64,000 bases of DNA, from assembly GCA_016788705.1 (NCBI GenBank), contig JAEUSQ010000018.1:62001-126000 (forward strand). Reading direction: 5' to 3'. The stretch is from Bacteroidetes Order II. bacterium. Lineage in GTDB: Bacteria; Bacteroidota; Rhodothermia; Rhodothermales; UBA2364. Below the pieces are notes generated by a model that saw only the letters and a list, made by a program, of their open reading frames with translations, was not told where the DNA came from and did no database searches. Position numbers and translations under genes: made by a program. Below are positions 9,001 through 15,193 of this stretch, piece by piece; the stretch's first letter is position 1; the number at the start of each line of letters is the position of its first letter.

Positions 9001-12000
9001 GGAAAACCAGTAAGTGGCAAAGTGGCAAAAAGATTTCAATACCCGAAGGTGCGATTAAAAGCGCCGCGTGTTTCCGGCTAACTGAATATTGATTTGAGTC
9101 ATTTCAATACCCGAAGGTGCGATTAAAAGCAGACCACAACGATTTTGAGGTGGATTTGCCGGACGATTTCAATACCCGAAGGTGCGATTAAAAGCCGGAC
9201 GTGGAAGGTAAACGTATTGGAACTGCAAAAATTTCAATACCCGAAGGTGCGATTAAAAGTAGGCGGCGGCGTTTCGGTTACGGTGGGGATAAAAATTTCA
9301 ATACCCGAAGGTGCGATTAAAAGTCTTCCAAAAGCATTGCAAACTGTTTGGCTTACAAAATTTCAATACCCGAAGGTGCGATTAAAAGCCGCCCAACTGT
9401 CCTACCATCATCGTAACCCAAGTGATTTCAATACCCGAAGGTGCGATTAAAAGGACCAGTAACGGGGCCGATGCAGGCGGGCAAATTAATTTCAATACCC
9501 GAAGGTGCGATTAAAAGAGGTGCTGCCTGCCCCGCTTTTGTATATGCTTTGTAAATTTCAATACCCGAAGGTGCGATTAAAAGTCCATAAAAATGGTAAT
9601 GGAACGGTATCACGGCGAAATTTCAATACCCGAAGGTGCGATTAAAAGTAGGCGGCGGCGTTTCGGTTACGGTGGGGATAAAAATTTCAATACCCGAAGG
9701 TGCGATTAAAAGCATAAACAGCCATCAGAAACAAAAAAAAGCCCCTCTAATTTCAATACCCGAAGGTGCGATTAAAAGGTGAACTATTTACTCATAAACC
9801 TAAACCAAAAAAAAAATTTCAATACCCGAAGGTGCGATTAAAAGTGTGGCAAAAATCTTAGCCCCTTTTACAGAGCATCATTTCAATACCCGAAGGTGCG
9901 ATTAAAAGTTTGCCACCCCACTAAAAGTTTTTGATCTTTCCTTTATTTCAATACCCGAAGGTGCGATTAAAAGTGGATATTCGGGCTTCGTCATTTGCCA
10001 GATCGGTTGATTTCAATACCCGAAGGTGCGATTAAAAGAGGGTAACTTCCGCCTAATCGTAATTCTGTTTCACTATTTCAATACCCGAAGGTGCGATTAA
10101 AAGAGTTTTGCCGCCAACACCGATCCGTCTGGAAGATATATTTCAATACCCGAAGGTGCGATTAAAAGTTTTCAGGAATGTAGTTCAAAATCTTAAAATC
10201 CTTATTTCAATACCCGAAGGTGCGATTAAAAGTCCGAAAAGGCCGCAATACGGGCTCCGTATTCTTCATTTCAATACCCGAAGGTGCGATTAAAAGTCGC
10301 ATTGATGAACCCTTCTGGCGTCTTGTCCTCAAATTTCAATACCCGAAGGTGCGATTAAAAGCCTGAAGTTTCGGCGTTGGTCGGGCGTGAATCAAAAATT
10401 TCAATACCCGAAGGTGCGATTAAAAGGGTTTCAAATGGTGAATGGTGGGCTGGGGTTGACTAATTTCAATACCCGAAGGTGCGATTAAAAGTCTATGTTG
10501 CCACGCTTGTAACTTATATTCAGTTATATTTCAATACCCGAAGGTGCGATTAAAAGCGCATTGATGAACCCTTCTGGCGTCTTGTCCTCAAATTTCAATA
10601 CCCGAAGGTGCGATTAAAAGAAAGCATGTATAACTCTCCCAAACAATGGGTGCTTGATTTCAATACCCGAAGGTGCGATTAAAAGCTGGGCTGATGTCGT
10701 AGCCCATTGCAAACATTGTTATTTCAATACCCGAAGGTGCGATTAAAAGCAATCCGCTTGCGTTCCCCGAAACAACGATTATATTATTTCAATACCCGAA
10801 GGTGCGATTAAAAGTAAAAGACGCGCCGGCGACAGCCAAACTTTCGGATCATTTCAATACCCGAAGGTGCGATTAAAAGTCGCATTGATGAACCCTTCTG
10901 GCGTCTTGTCCTCAAATTTCAATACCCGAAGGTGCGATTAAAAGCCCTGATTTAATTAATGCAATAAAGTACGAAGTTGCATTTCAATACCCGAAGGTGC
11001 GATTAAAAGTTTATTAGACAAGTTGCATCTTCTAATTGGAAAGTAATTTCAATACCCGAAGGTGCGATTAAAAGCCAAAAAAGCTTCCGTGAAAACCGAA
11101 CAAATAAATAATTTCAATACCCGAAGGTGCGATTAAAAGCGTTGGCATGGAGCCGGTGCAGCGTGACGGGATTTAATTTCAATACCCGAAGGTGCGATTA
11201 AAAGTATCATGCCAAAATAGTCATGCTTGCATAGGTTTGAATTTCAATACCCGAAGGTGCGATTAAAAGGCCTCAACGGGTGGAAAGTAAACGTAAAACA
11301 GATGTATTTCAATACCCGAAGGTGCGATTAAAAGCATGTTCTTGCTCGTGGTGCTGGTCAGCAGATTCGATTTCAATACCCGAAGGTGCGATTAAAAGGG
11401 GTAAAAAACCAAGATGATTTGATGATTAGATGATATTTCAATACCCGAAGGTGCGATTAAAAGGGGGGTCAAAAATGCGGCTGATCTGATGATTAGATGA
11501 ATTTCAATACCCGAAGGTGCGATTAAAAGCAGGATATAACGATAGATTTAAAATTGGATGAACTATTTCAATACCCGAAGGTGCGATTAAAAGGCTTGAT
11601 GGGGGATAGGGAGGAATTTTTGGATTATGATTTCAATACCCGAAGGTGCGATTAAAAGTAAATGGCAGTGGTAAAACCTTTACCGCCCTAAATAATTTCA
11701 ATACCCGAAGGTGCGATTAAAAGAAGGCCGAAGATTTAATATCTGAGGCTTCAGAACTAATTTCAATACCCGAAGGTGCGATTAAAAGTTCCATTTTTAA
11801 TTTGCCGATTAGCAAAAGCAGAACTATTTCAATACCCGAAGGTGCGATTAAAAGTCGGACGGGCTTTCATTATTGCTTTATGTGTTCATATTTCAATACC
11901 CGAAGGTGCGATTAAAAGATTCTCAGGGTTTTTCCTAATCCGTATCTTTTTTCTATTTCAATACCCGAAGGTGCGATTAAAAGTGTACCGGATCAAAGCG

Positions 12001-12545: not shown

Positions 12546-13631
12546 TTACCACCACATCTTAAAACCTGTATAAGGCTCTTTGTTAGGGTCTATTAAATGG
12601 CGAATAAGGGAGTAGCAATCTAATCGGATAAGACGCTCGTAACTAACCTTTCGGTTCAAGGCTCGATGTTGGATAATGGTTCTTAGCCGCTCATCCCAAT
12701 GCTGAACAAATAGTTGCCTGCCGCTTTCTTTTAGATACACCCCACCCAGGCGTGCTTCAAAATGCTTGGGTTGTATGACGTTGGTTTTAAGGAGTTTAAA
12801 GATGGCACGATCCACCAAAAGCGGCTTAAAAACCTCGCTGAGGTCTAAGGCTAAGGAAAACCGTCGGTCTCCCGGCTCGTGCAAATAGCTAATGGTGGGG
12901 TCTAATGCGGTGCGGTAGATTTGCCGGAGTACCGATCCATAACAAAGGGCATTACCAAAACTGATTAAGGCATTCAGTTCATTGGATGGAGGATTTCGTT
13001 CCCGCTTGTCAAACGGAAACTTTTCGGTGATGCCTTGCCCCAGAATAGCAGGCCAGAGGGTGTAATAGGTGTCCCGCATATTGCCCTCGATGCCCATGAG
13101 CGCCGGAACCTCCGTCATCACGTCCAATTGCCCGCGCAGCATTTCGATGCGTTCAATACCTGCCTGTAAACGCATCTGGTCTTCTCCTGACTGGCGGGTC
13201 TGGTAATACTTGAGCACCCGAAGGATGTTATATGCCGCTGCTTCCACAAAGACCCGTGCCAGTTTGATCCGCCAAGCTGGTTTAAGGTAATGCTGGGCTT
13301 GGTTTACCCTAAGTCTGCCCGAAAGCAGGCTGTCTCTCGGATAAAGCGTACCCGTGAAATTACCGTAGTAGTCAAAGAAAAAGATGGGCACATGATGCTG
13401 GCATAGAAAGGTGATCAGCTTGGTGTTTAAATCCATCTCACCAAAACAATACAAGGCTTCTACCTGCTCAATCGGAATCGCAGATTTGTCGGTCAGACAA
13501 AGCCCGGAAGGTGCGCCATCGGATAGTGGATGGTCATCCGGCTCTCTGTTTCCATCCATTTTATAAAGGTAAAGGGTGTTGTCTTTGCGTTTTAAACGCC
13601 CACTCGAAAAAATATAATAAGGTCTTTTCAC
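12546..13631 (-). CDS. cas1: CRISPR-associated integrase Cas1
   Basis: The 361-aa protein has the N-terminal beta domain (MKRPYYIFSSGRLKRKDNTL, typical of type I-B-like Cas1) and the C-terminal helical catalytic domain. The expected metal ligands are visible as E182 (in MGIEGNMRDTYY), H251 (SYLHEPG) and D263 (ALDLSEVFKPLLVD). Cas1 catalyses both transesterifications of spacer integration and partners with Cas2 immediately downstream. The start codon appears to be GTG, because no upstream in-frame ATG fits and the protein aligns from this residue. The gene is cut off from cas4 by a plus-strand gene and a repeat block, so cas1-cas2 probably has its own promoter in 13632-13729. Confidence 0.97.
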   Translation of the reverse strand: MKRPYYIFSSGRLKRKDNTLYLYKMDGNREPDDHPLSDGAPSGLCLTDKSAIPIEQVEALYCFGEMDLNTKLITFLCQHHVPIFFFDYYGNFTGTLYPRDSLLSGRLRVNQAQHYLKPAWRIKLARVFVEAAAYNILRVLKYYQTRQSGEDQMRLQAGIERIEMLRGQLDVMTEVPALMGIEGNMRDTYYTLWPAILGQGITEKFPFDKRERNPPSNELNALISFGNALCYGSVLRQIYRTALDPTISYLHEPGDRRFSLALDLSEVFKPLLVDRAIFKLLKTNVIQPKHFEARLGGVYLKESGRQLFVQHWDERLRTIIQHRALNRKVSYERLIRLDCYSLIRHLIDPNKEPYTGFKMWW

Positions 13632-13729
13632 TTTTTTTCGACAAATTAAGTTATGTTTTGCAATCTCATGTGTTTATAAGAGTAAGCGGATGATTTCCGT
13701 CTATTCATTAATCATAAAACCAAAATATT

Positions 13730-14206
13730 ATGCCAAACCTTCCTTCTACGGTGGCTTTTACGGAAGCAGACCGAATCGCTTTAATACAAAAGGTAGATGA
13801 GATCTACACCGCATTAAACTTTATGGTGACACTAACCAATGAAGAACGGAAAAGTATCAAGCAAATCAGTGACAAACACTATGGTTTTATGACCAAGTTA
13901 ATTGATCATGCAACACAGCATCCGGAGTTCCGCCCAATGCATATGGATATGGATAAATTGAGTCATTATTATGACCTTGTTCTTAAGCTCAATACAATCA
14001 GAAGCAGGGTTGAGCAACTTGAGATTCAACTGTCTGATACCATTGCGCTAATGGGTTCCGAAGCCGATGCCGAAGCACGTAAGTATTACAAAATGGTTCA
14101 TGTAGCTGCCAAAGACGGTGTGGCAGGCGCGCAACCTATATATGATGACCTACGCAGTCGTTTTCCGGTTGGGAACAGAACCAATAACGAAACCCCCAAA
14201 CCATAA
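13730..14206 (+). CDS. Conserved hypothetical protein embedded between cas1 and cas4 (158 aa)
   Basis: The product is a soluble, helix-rich 158-aa protein with no signal peptide and no membrane segment. It starts MPNLPSTVAFTEADR and ends with a polar tail. The segments TNEERKSIKQISDKHYGF, EQLEIQLSDTIALMGSEAD and GAQPIYDDLRSRFP look like a family of small Bacteroidota proteins I have seen only as hypothetical; I know of no function. It is transcribed opposite to every cas gene around it. It shares a roughly 100-bp divergent promoter region with cas1 and ends in its own terminator (14230-14265). That arrangement suggests an independent insertion rather than a Cas subunit, though a link to adaptation cannot be excluded. 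Confidence 0.8.
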   Translation: MPNLPSTVAFTEADRIALIQKVDEIYTALNFMVTLTNEERKSIKQISDKHYGFMTKLIDHATQHPEFRPMHMDMDKLSHYYDLVLKLNTIRSRVEQLEIQLSDTIALMGSEADAEARKYYKMVHVAAKDGVAGAQPIYDDLRSRFPVGNRTNNETPKP

Positions 14207-14229
14207 AATTCAGGTTTCGGTATCAAGAT

Positions 14230-14265
14230 CGGGTGCCTTGCAATAGGCGGGGTACCCGTTTTTTT
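14230..14265 (+). terminator. Rho-independent terminator of the 158-aa gene
   Basis: An interrupted G/C-rich stem (CGGGTGCC against GGGGTACCCG) is followed by a run of seven T, starting 23 bp after the stop codon. Confidence 0.7.
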
Positions 14266-14310
14266 GAGAGGTCGTTTTAAAGGGCATACGGTTATTCCAC
14301 ATAGGCATGG

Positions 14311-14524
14311 TACTTATGATAAGGAGGTTCTACATAGTCGAGTAATCAGGTTGAACTTATGATAAAGATACTTGGGTTTACCATAAGGAGGTGTTACATG
14401 GTCAAGTAATTAAGCTGAGCTTACTATAAGAAGGCATTATTTTATCATAAGAAGGTATTACATGGTCGAGGAATTAGAAGGAGCTATAATAAGGGAATTT
14501 GAGCTTATGATAAGCTAATGGTGT
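14311..14524. repeat. Iteron-like phased repeat block, 64-bp unit, palindromic CTTATnATAAG motif
   Basis: Three 64-bp units (14311-14374, 14375-14438, 14439-14502) and a partial fourth match each other; units 1 and 2 are about two-thirds identical. Each unit carries two copies of an 11-bp palindrome-like motif, CTTATGATAAG or a close variant. Copies begin at 14313, 14356, 14377, 14420, 14441, 14483 and 14504, with spacings of 43, 21, 43, 21, 42 and 21 bp (whole numbers of helical turns). The third 21-bp slot of each unit instead carries ATGGTCGAG-like sequence (14334, 14398, 14462). The final copy is a 15-bp palindrome, AGCTTATGATAAGCT. The block lies between the convergent 3' ends of the 158-aa gene and cas4. 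Period 64 is not a multiple of three and the units have stops, so it is not coding. Its function is unknown. Confidence 0.85.
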
Positions 14525-14536
14525 ATATTGTGGCCT

Positions 14537-15052
14537 CTATCCATAGCAGCATTCCTCAAAGGAGCACTTAGCGCAGAGCTTCCGGTTGGGGTTGCGGTCT
14601 GGGGGGAGGGGCGCCTGAAACAGTGCGGCAATGGCATGCACCATTTCACCAAGGCGGACTTCATCTTCCGGACTTAGCGTAACGGGCTGGGTCTTTTTGA
14701 GCAGGGGGTATTGGATTAAGCCTGTATAATTTGAGCAGCCCGATAACTTGAGCAGCCACAGATAGAATCTGGTTTGCCAGATATGGCTTTCTTCGGCGGC
14801 CTTGCTTTTCTTTACTTCGTACAAAACCCCATCTTTTAGGTTGGCTCCGTCTAACTTACCCACCAATGGAATGCCCGCATAAACGGCTTCTAACATTAGG
14901 TCTTTATTCGTGCGTTCATAAGCCTGTTCATGCAAAAGCCGCCCCAAAGCCACCGTCTCGCTTTCCTGCTCCATATCAATGCCTTGTTGCTTAAGCCATG
15001 CTTTTCGAGGGCATAGTGCATAATATCCAATACTATAACCTGAAATATTCAT
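14537..15052 (-). CDS. cas4: CRISPR-associated nuclease Cas4
   Basis: A 171-aa protein if started at the ATG at 15052 (MNISGYSIGYYALCPRKAW), which is where Cas4 similarity begins. A longer reading to 15154 adds 34 residues that look like translated leader and overlap the hairpins at 15093-15193, so I reject it. The first Fe-S cysteine is in YYALCPRKAW and the last three are in the C-terminal KLCAKCSFEECCYG. The PD-(D/E)xK nuclease core is seen as GKLDGANLKDGVLYEVKKSK. Cas4 trims prespacers and selects PAM-containing ends together with Cas1-Cas2. It is the last gene of the effector operon and is separated from cas1 by about 1.3 kb of unrelated sequence. Confidence 0.93.
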   Translation of the reverse strand: MNISGYSIGYYALCPRKAWLKQQGIDMEQESETVALGRLLHEQAYERTNKDLMLEAVYAGIPLVGKLDGANLKDGVLYEVKKSKAAEESHIWQTRFYLWLLKLSGCSNYTGLIQYPLLKKTQPVTLSPEDEVRLGEMVHAIAALFQAPLPPDRNPNRKLCAKCSFEECCYG

Positions 15053-15092
15053 GGTGGGTAAGATGGGCGTATTAAGTAGGGGTCTCTTTAAA

Positions 15093-15193
15093 ATGGGACA
15101 TCCTCTTTTCCAAGGAGATGCCCCATTGGCGTCAAAGCACGTTGCAACCAGCAACTAAAACGGAGAACATGACTTTTAAAGGACGTGCTTTGA
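15093..15193 (-). other. Structured intergenic region between cas7 and cas4
   Basis: Two hairpins can be drawn. The outer arms of the larger one are a perfect 11-bp inverted repeat (15132-15142 TCAAAGCACGT, 15183-15193 its complement, 40-nt loop). Nested in it is a 5-bp stem (15141-15145 GTTGC with 15151-15155 GCAAC). A second, imperfect stem (about 15094-15101 GGGACATC with 15117-15124 GATGCCCC) lies closer to cas4. Possible roles are partial termination after cas7, mRNA processing or a small RNA. Confidence 0.5.

Follow-up and report, generated by a model that had tools for sequence, protein, structure and literature searches.

Gene A and a phased array between cas4 and cas1

The window (the whole 64-kb stretch of DNA analysed, from genome G000) carries cas genes that are assigned to type I-B by both PADLOC and NCBIfam models. 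Between cas1 and cas4 lies an insert with a small gene, here called gene A, and a block of short palindromes; cas1 and cas4 both run opposite to gene A. The features of the region are as follows.

12546–13631, minus strand: cas1 (Cas_Cas1, E 3.5e-86), a boundary of the insert and outside the unit.
13632–14536: the entire insert, from the cas1 start to the cas4 stop, 905 bp.
13632–13729, plus strand: 5′ region of gene A, 98 bp, presumed promoter; on the opposite strand it is also the 5′ region of cas1.
13730–14206, plus strand: gene A, encoding a 158-aa acidic protein, predicted to be all-helical, that is not in Pfam, NCBIfam, PHROGs or PADLOC.
14230–14258, plus strand: intrinsic-terminator-like stem-loop of 12 pairs followed by a T run, between gene A and the array.
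14313–14514: phased array of seven CTTATnATAAG-like palindromes of 11 bp each.
14537–15154, minus strand: cas4 (Cas_Cas4, E 6.4e-38), a boundary of the insert and outside the unit.

The preliminary description of this DNA had placed a 158-aa gene with its own terminator between cas4 and cas1, and this is borne out by the open reading frame and by the stem-loop. It had also called the protein helical; the AlphaFold2 model, made from the single sequence, is indeed all-helical, though weak (mean pLDDT 63.5, pTM 0.50). The 98-bp stretch 5′ of the gene is presumed to be its promoter.

The 'iteron-like block' that had been noted beside the gene is real, and its seven sites fall on a 21.2-bp lattice. 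They start at nt 14313, 14356, 14377, 14420, 14441, 14483 and 14504 (spacings of 43, 21, 43, 21, 42 and 21 bp), and differ from CTTATNATAAG by zero to two mismatches. They fit a period of 21.20 bp best, with a phasing that none of 20,000 random placements equalled. A loose form of the motif occurs 27 times across the 64-kb window against 30.2 expected from shuffled sequences, and as it is not enriched, it is the clustering and phasing of the sites that are significant. No further periodic arrays of the same kind were found elsewhere in the window. In the CRISPR array of the window, one spacer occurs three times (at 10266, 10525 and 10849), in non-adjacent positions and with differing neighbours.

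An undescribed protein family of Bacteroidota

Initial relatives of A were collected by a single-sequence search of 394 genomes of the phylum, and a profile (A2) was made from the window copy, its sister copy and 36 relatives (38 members). The window copy matches this profile with an E value of 1.0e-51 over positions 3–159 of 160, being itself one of the A2 rows. By the A2 profile, A is present in 30 of the 394 Bacteroidota genomes (about 8%) and in 21 of 170 genera, a patchy distribution, and within two genera it was found in 44 of 249 and 23 of 72 genomes, respectively. A genome that carries A has from one to seven matches, and some of these are decayed copies. Most of the proteins are acidic, with a median pI of 5.2.

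No fitting model for A was found in Pfam, NCBIfam, PHROGs or PADLOC. Stray matches to Pfam, PHROGs and PADLOC were taken as chance, each being common to at most three of the 38 members; examples are PADLOC Cas3b (2/38, E 9.5e-5), phrog_18412 (2/38), and the Pfam models LTXXQ (3/38) and Gag_p15 (1/38, E 2.4e-4). Sequence and fold searches of the PDB returned nothing (the best fold match, E 0.24, came from the weak single-sequence model), and A has no recognisable DNA-binding domain. Relatives were not found in viral, phage and plasmid collections, the last comprising 72,556 records. Neither the family nor the arrangement of gene and array is described in the literature covered, a scope that left aside most subscription journals and all preprints. 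A is an undescribed protein family of Bacteroidota.

For comparison, 122 loci were used, of which 120 were picked by their A match alone, with repeats ignored, and the other two were L001 and L003. In a tree of 119 of the 122 proteins (three broken ones were omitted) the window copy is placed without firmness, joined to L072 and L075 with a support of 0.84. In genomes G421 and G456, several copies (L046, L047, L051, L053 and L077) directly follow, on the 3′ side, large genes that are similar in sequence to one another; the similarity may lie in a C-terminal domain that serves in recombination.

An empty site within the genus

The genus of the window was compared through three genomes (G000, G001 and G002). 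In G001, gene A lies at the same place between cas4 and cas1 and is 99% identical to the window copy. Across the 477 nt of the gene, the two copies differ by 11 synonymous changes and 2 non-synonymous ones, which indicates that gene A is under purifying selection; their 98-bp 5′ regions show 2 differences. The sister array (L004, 3783–3986) has six sites and is cleaner than that of the window, with 4.4 copies of 43 bp.

An uninterrupted cas4-cas1, which the preliminary description had proposed to look for in close relatives, exists in the same genus: in G002 the two genes are 21 bp apart, with neither gene A nor repeats between them, and cas1 is 83% identical. This is the sole empty site found; a search in another genus showed only the nearest gene to be conserved. 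The cas4-cas1-cas2 genes of G002 (L035, 21–959) stand beside a different upstream ORF, which by eye resembles the end of another cas3 and suggests that the interference module was swapped. Even by profile search, gene A is present in just 2 of 114 genomes of the order, which makes a gain in the genus of the window more likely than loss.

The preliminary description had offered, as one of two readings, a locus-specific accessory factor of the CRISPR system, for example a regulator of adaptation. The position between cas4 and cas1 is kept in two species, and the weak Cas3b match given above would also agree with such a role. However, cas genes flank A at only 2 of the 122 loci, both of them in this genus, and a congener has cas4-cas1-cas2 without gene A. 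The accessory factor was therefore rejected, and we regard it as barely credible. The link of gene A to cas genes is incidental, and in the CRISPR locus the unit is most plausibly a passenger.

Periodic arrays at homologous loci

Arrays were scored by periodicity at lags of 20–23 or 41–45 bp, and one was counted when z exceeded 4.5 in a 200-bp segment whose start lay no more than 700 bp beyond A on its 3′ side. By this test, a 3′ array is present at 98 of the 122 A loci. The same test applied to the 5′ side, to DNA far 3′, and to other lags at the same place gave three of 122 in each case. Four of the 3′ misses have an array 5′ of A (L149, L152, L156 and L163), so that 102 loci have one on either side and 20 have none by periodicity. 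Among the misses are two wrecked genes (L077 and L078) and a contig-limited locus (L141), and the window copy is also tallied as a miss in the count of 98, owing to a generic periodicity score (z = 3.3) under the cut-off. Outside these tallies are five further A loci, with a 3′ array (L172 and L173) or a 5′ array (L174 and L176), and one (L175) where no array of such period was found. The best short lag was 21 bp in 74 cases, 22 in 19 and 20 in one, and the long best lags were 42–44 bp. Of the other such arrays in the 830 kb of loci, almost all are on the 5′ side of either A or gene B (see below), and few lie elsewhere. At 81 of 122 loci the A stop codon is followed within 130 nt by a terminator-like structure, compared with 4.4 loci expected from shuffles.

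The arrays are commonly palindromic, with a reverse-complement self-match of z > 6 in 81 of 98, against 25 for the mirror image and two for flanking DNA. The palindrome varies by locus (GAACCAGTTC, GACTTCAGTC, GTTCGAAC and others), and in some arrays half-sites of 6–8 bp flip direction about every 10.5 bp, e.g., TTCACC-AAAAA-GGTGAA-CTAG. The preliminary description had looked to homologues for repeats of the form CTTATnATAAG or for neighbouring cas genes. The first expectation was wrong in its detail, the palindrome being locus-specific, and right in that phased palindromic arrays with a 21-bp phasing accompany the homologues; the second failed. What is kept is the geometry of two helical turns and two-fold symmetry, not the sequence, and homology searches consequently miss these arrays.

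Modules within one genome tend to differ in motif, with 3 of 32 same-genome pairs sharing one against 6.9 expected (p 0.02). Three genomes have three modules each, with three motifs (L118/L124/L161, L121/L125/L128 and L122/L123/L130). In one genus (L133, L139, L143–L145, L150, L151 and L158), half-site words such as AACCCC, AACGCC, AACGTC and ACCACG are mixed freely within an array, as if there were a small alphabet for each half-site. At L147 and L155, exact 21-bp arrays 3′ of A read as heptad-like ORFs of 138–152 aa (KLNSAFI repeats); exact 21-bp arrays keep one frame open, and annotation pipelines could therefore mistake them for proteins.

DNA or RNA

The compensation within units that is expected of RNA hairpins is absent in the 88 arrays analysed, where arm pairing was 0.574 within a unit and 0.588 between units, and this speaks against RNA hairpins. 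These values are from an unbiased version of the test; a register that maximises pairing within the unit is biased and gives within above between in 77 of the 88. At the seven loci searched, the array is not covered by any Rfam family. Near two homologues, RNA elements unrelated to the arrays were seen, a SAM-I/IV riboswitch (L092, 3903–3999) and a DUF805b RNA (L150, 5321–5353).

Type III toxin-antitoxin loci combine a small protein gene with a locus-specific tandem repeat array, and gene A and its array have the same two parts. In an RNA module of this sort, transcribed repeats would bind or inhibit A. Such a module is very improbable here, since pairing within units does not exceed that of re-paired units, no Rfam family was found over the array at the seven loci searched, and the array usually lies past the A terminator; moreover, unlike the repeats of toxin-antitoxin loci, these arrays are phased to helical turns and their palindromes lack RNA-like compensation. 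The missing compensation, the terminators and the periods of 21/22 and 42–44 bp together point to an array that acts as double-stranded DNA, read in helical phase by a protein complex.

A unit that seems to travel

Close copies of A in unrelated surroundings share the promoter, gene A, the terminator and the array (about 0.9 kb). In close pairs with A only, the shared stretch runs from about −90 to −190 up to +805 to +870 around A, and in pairs with B it extends to about the end of B, at +1186 to +1442. The 905-bp insert of the window matches the unit common to A-only homologues in both make-up and size. All 20 pairs whose A proteins are 90% or more identical have their array in common, though the flanks often differ; at 80–90% identity this holds for 44% of 41 pairs, and when an array changes, the whole of it is replaced at once. 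Gene A and its array seem to be one travelling unit.

The other reading in the preliminary description was an autonomous two-part element, protein plus DNA sites, that had inserted into the cas operon. A gene that entered the operon with its DNA sites is supported by what was found, but nothing found speaks for 'autonomous': genes for a transposase, an integrase, Rep or Par do not recur next to A. A miniature transposable element mobilised in trans, with the array as part of its ends and A as cargo or helper, would account for near-identical units in unrelated contexts, for the patchy distribution and decayed copies, and for the orientations of neighbouring genes, which look unbiased (40/30/27/20 among 117 loci with both neighbours). 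On the other hand, inspection by eye of 12 pairs revealed no terminal inverted repeats or target duplications at the unit ends, the exact positions of which are uncertain; the array turns over completely, unlike the ends of transposons; and no copies were found on plasmids or phages. We consider this explanation improbable.

Gene B and the reading of the array

Only one gene recurs next to the array. This gene, B, follows it within 1 kb at 19 of the 122 A loci, and encodes a protein of 109–121 aa with a weak match to Cro/C1-type helix-turn-helix (HTH) domains and a coiled-coil-like C terminus. A and B show no homology. Where B occurs without A nearby, an array of 21/22 or 43 bp lies 5′ of it at seven of eight loci (L169 is doubtful). 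Strong matches to B (E < 1e-18) are present in 7 of 394 genomes, six of which carry A (p 8e-7, with shared ancestry still in this value). By profile, the genome of the window (G000) has no strong B.

Array similarity correlates with similarity in the B recognition region (r 0.82), compared with 0.61 for the rest of B and 0.58 for A; these values are from pairs of 18 related loci and are hence non-independent. For the recognition region, r stays at 0.75 and 0.78 after removal of the rest of B and of A, respectively, while for A it becomes −0.42 after removal of the B recognition region. For example, L058 and L117 are 88% identical in A and 83% in B outside the HTH, with 57% in the recognition region and unlike arrays (0.15), whereas L058 and L126 are 84% identical in A and 91% in the recognition region, and have similar arrays (0.76). 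The recognition region of B covaries with the site, as it does for an HTH protein and its operator, and this covariation supports the view that B, where present, probably reads the array. At 80 loci with A only, just the C-terminal tail of A clearly tracks the array motif, and this may be mere DNA linkage, since the tail adjoins the array in the DNA.

These results bear on an alternative in which the array is an operator or decoy for HTH regulators (B or a host protein) and A is merely regulated, never acting there itself. That the recognition region of B, and not A, predicts the array motif would follow from it, as would the acidic nature of A and the placement of the array 5′ of B at B-only loci, where an operator would be. 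Yet B is near A at just 19 of 122 loci and, by the same profile, is absent from most genomes that carry A, while the array persists, and the array is mostly 3′ of a terminator, an unexpected place for an operator of A. We judge this alternative unlikely, though it deserves to be kept in mind.

Comparison with known systems

The iterons of plasmid replicons are tandem sites of about 21–22 bp (two turns) beside the gene of the protein that acts on them, and their sequence is specific to the replicon. The phased sites adjoining A are likewise of about 21–22 bp and locus-specific. The differences are that A has no Rep domain (38 members against Pfam) and no match in the 72,556 plasmid records, and that the A-array units are palindromic and often number several per chromosome. 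In plasmid centromeres of the parC/ParR type, a small DNA-binding protein reads phased sites, and at the B-only loci, too, the array lies 5′ of the gene for its probable reader; however, no partner NTPase of the ParA or ParM type recurs beside A or B, and B consists of a predicted HTH and coiled coil.

REP/RAYT systems also link short palindromes to a protein gene, and RAYTs are HUH tyrosine transposases (PMC3733652). In contrast, the 38 members of A have no Pfam transposase match, and their palindromes are in tandem and occur only at their own locus (as checked in the genus of the window). BrickBuilt, a MITE minisatellite of Porphyromonas gingivalis, has a 23-nt repeat with a leader, a tail and inverted-repeat ends, and is described from this one species (PMC4596501). 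It resembles the A arrays as an intergenic tandem repeat of about two turns, present in many copies in a member of the Bacteroidota, and differs from them in that, so far as this source describes it, it is without a dedicated protein gene. The unit of A and array works like iteron, centromere or operator arrays, and lacks a defining feature of iteron replicons, partition loci, REP/RAYT systems and type III toxin-antitoxin loci.

Proposed role of the unit

In the explanation that we favour, each unit consists of a promoter, gene A, a terminator and a private array whose palindromes are set two DNA turns (about 21 bp) apart. A dimeric protein would occupy these sites along a single helix face, giving a phased nucleoprotein complex specific to the locus, and A would act at its own array, either directly or through an HTH protein such as B. 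The complex might serve in repression, exclusion, anchoring or movement of the unit. Where B is missing, as in the window, the array would be read by A itself or by a protein encoded elsewhere; apart from the tail, little of A tracks the motif, and the reader at such loci is therefore the weakest link in the proposal. The unit would spread between chromosomal places, and probably landed between cas4 and cas1 in an ancestor shared by two of the three species sampled. That the array is a DNA platform filled in helical phase by a dimeric protein, with A working there, is a proposition on which we find ourselves evenly poised.

More tentative, and on balance doubtful, is the idea of a self-recognising module, in which a small helical protein and its private phased palindrome array switch specificity jointly, modules of one genome avoid each other's motif, and the cassette spreads between chromosomes with no visible transposase, plasmid or phage. 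If true, this would be a new class of chromosomal module, perhaps a device for homing, exclusion or segregation.

The linkage between A and its array is very tight (98 loci against three in controls). Natural arrays are numerous, and one lineage adds an HTH partner that covaries with them, which opens the specificity of the arrays, and how it switches, to direct tests. The window itself gives an example of a cassette that has become established in a CRISPR operon and yet does not belong to it.
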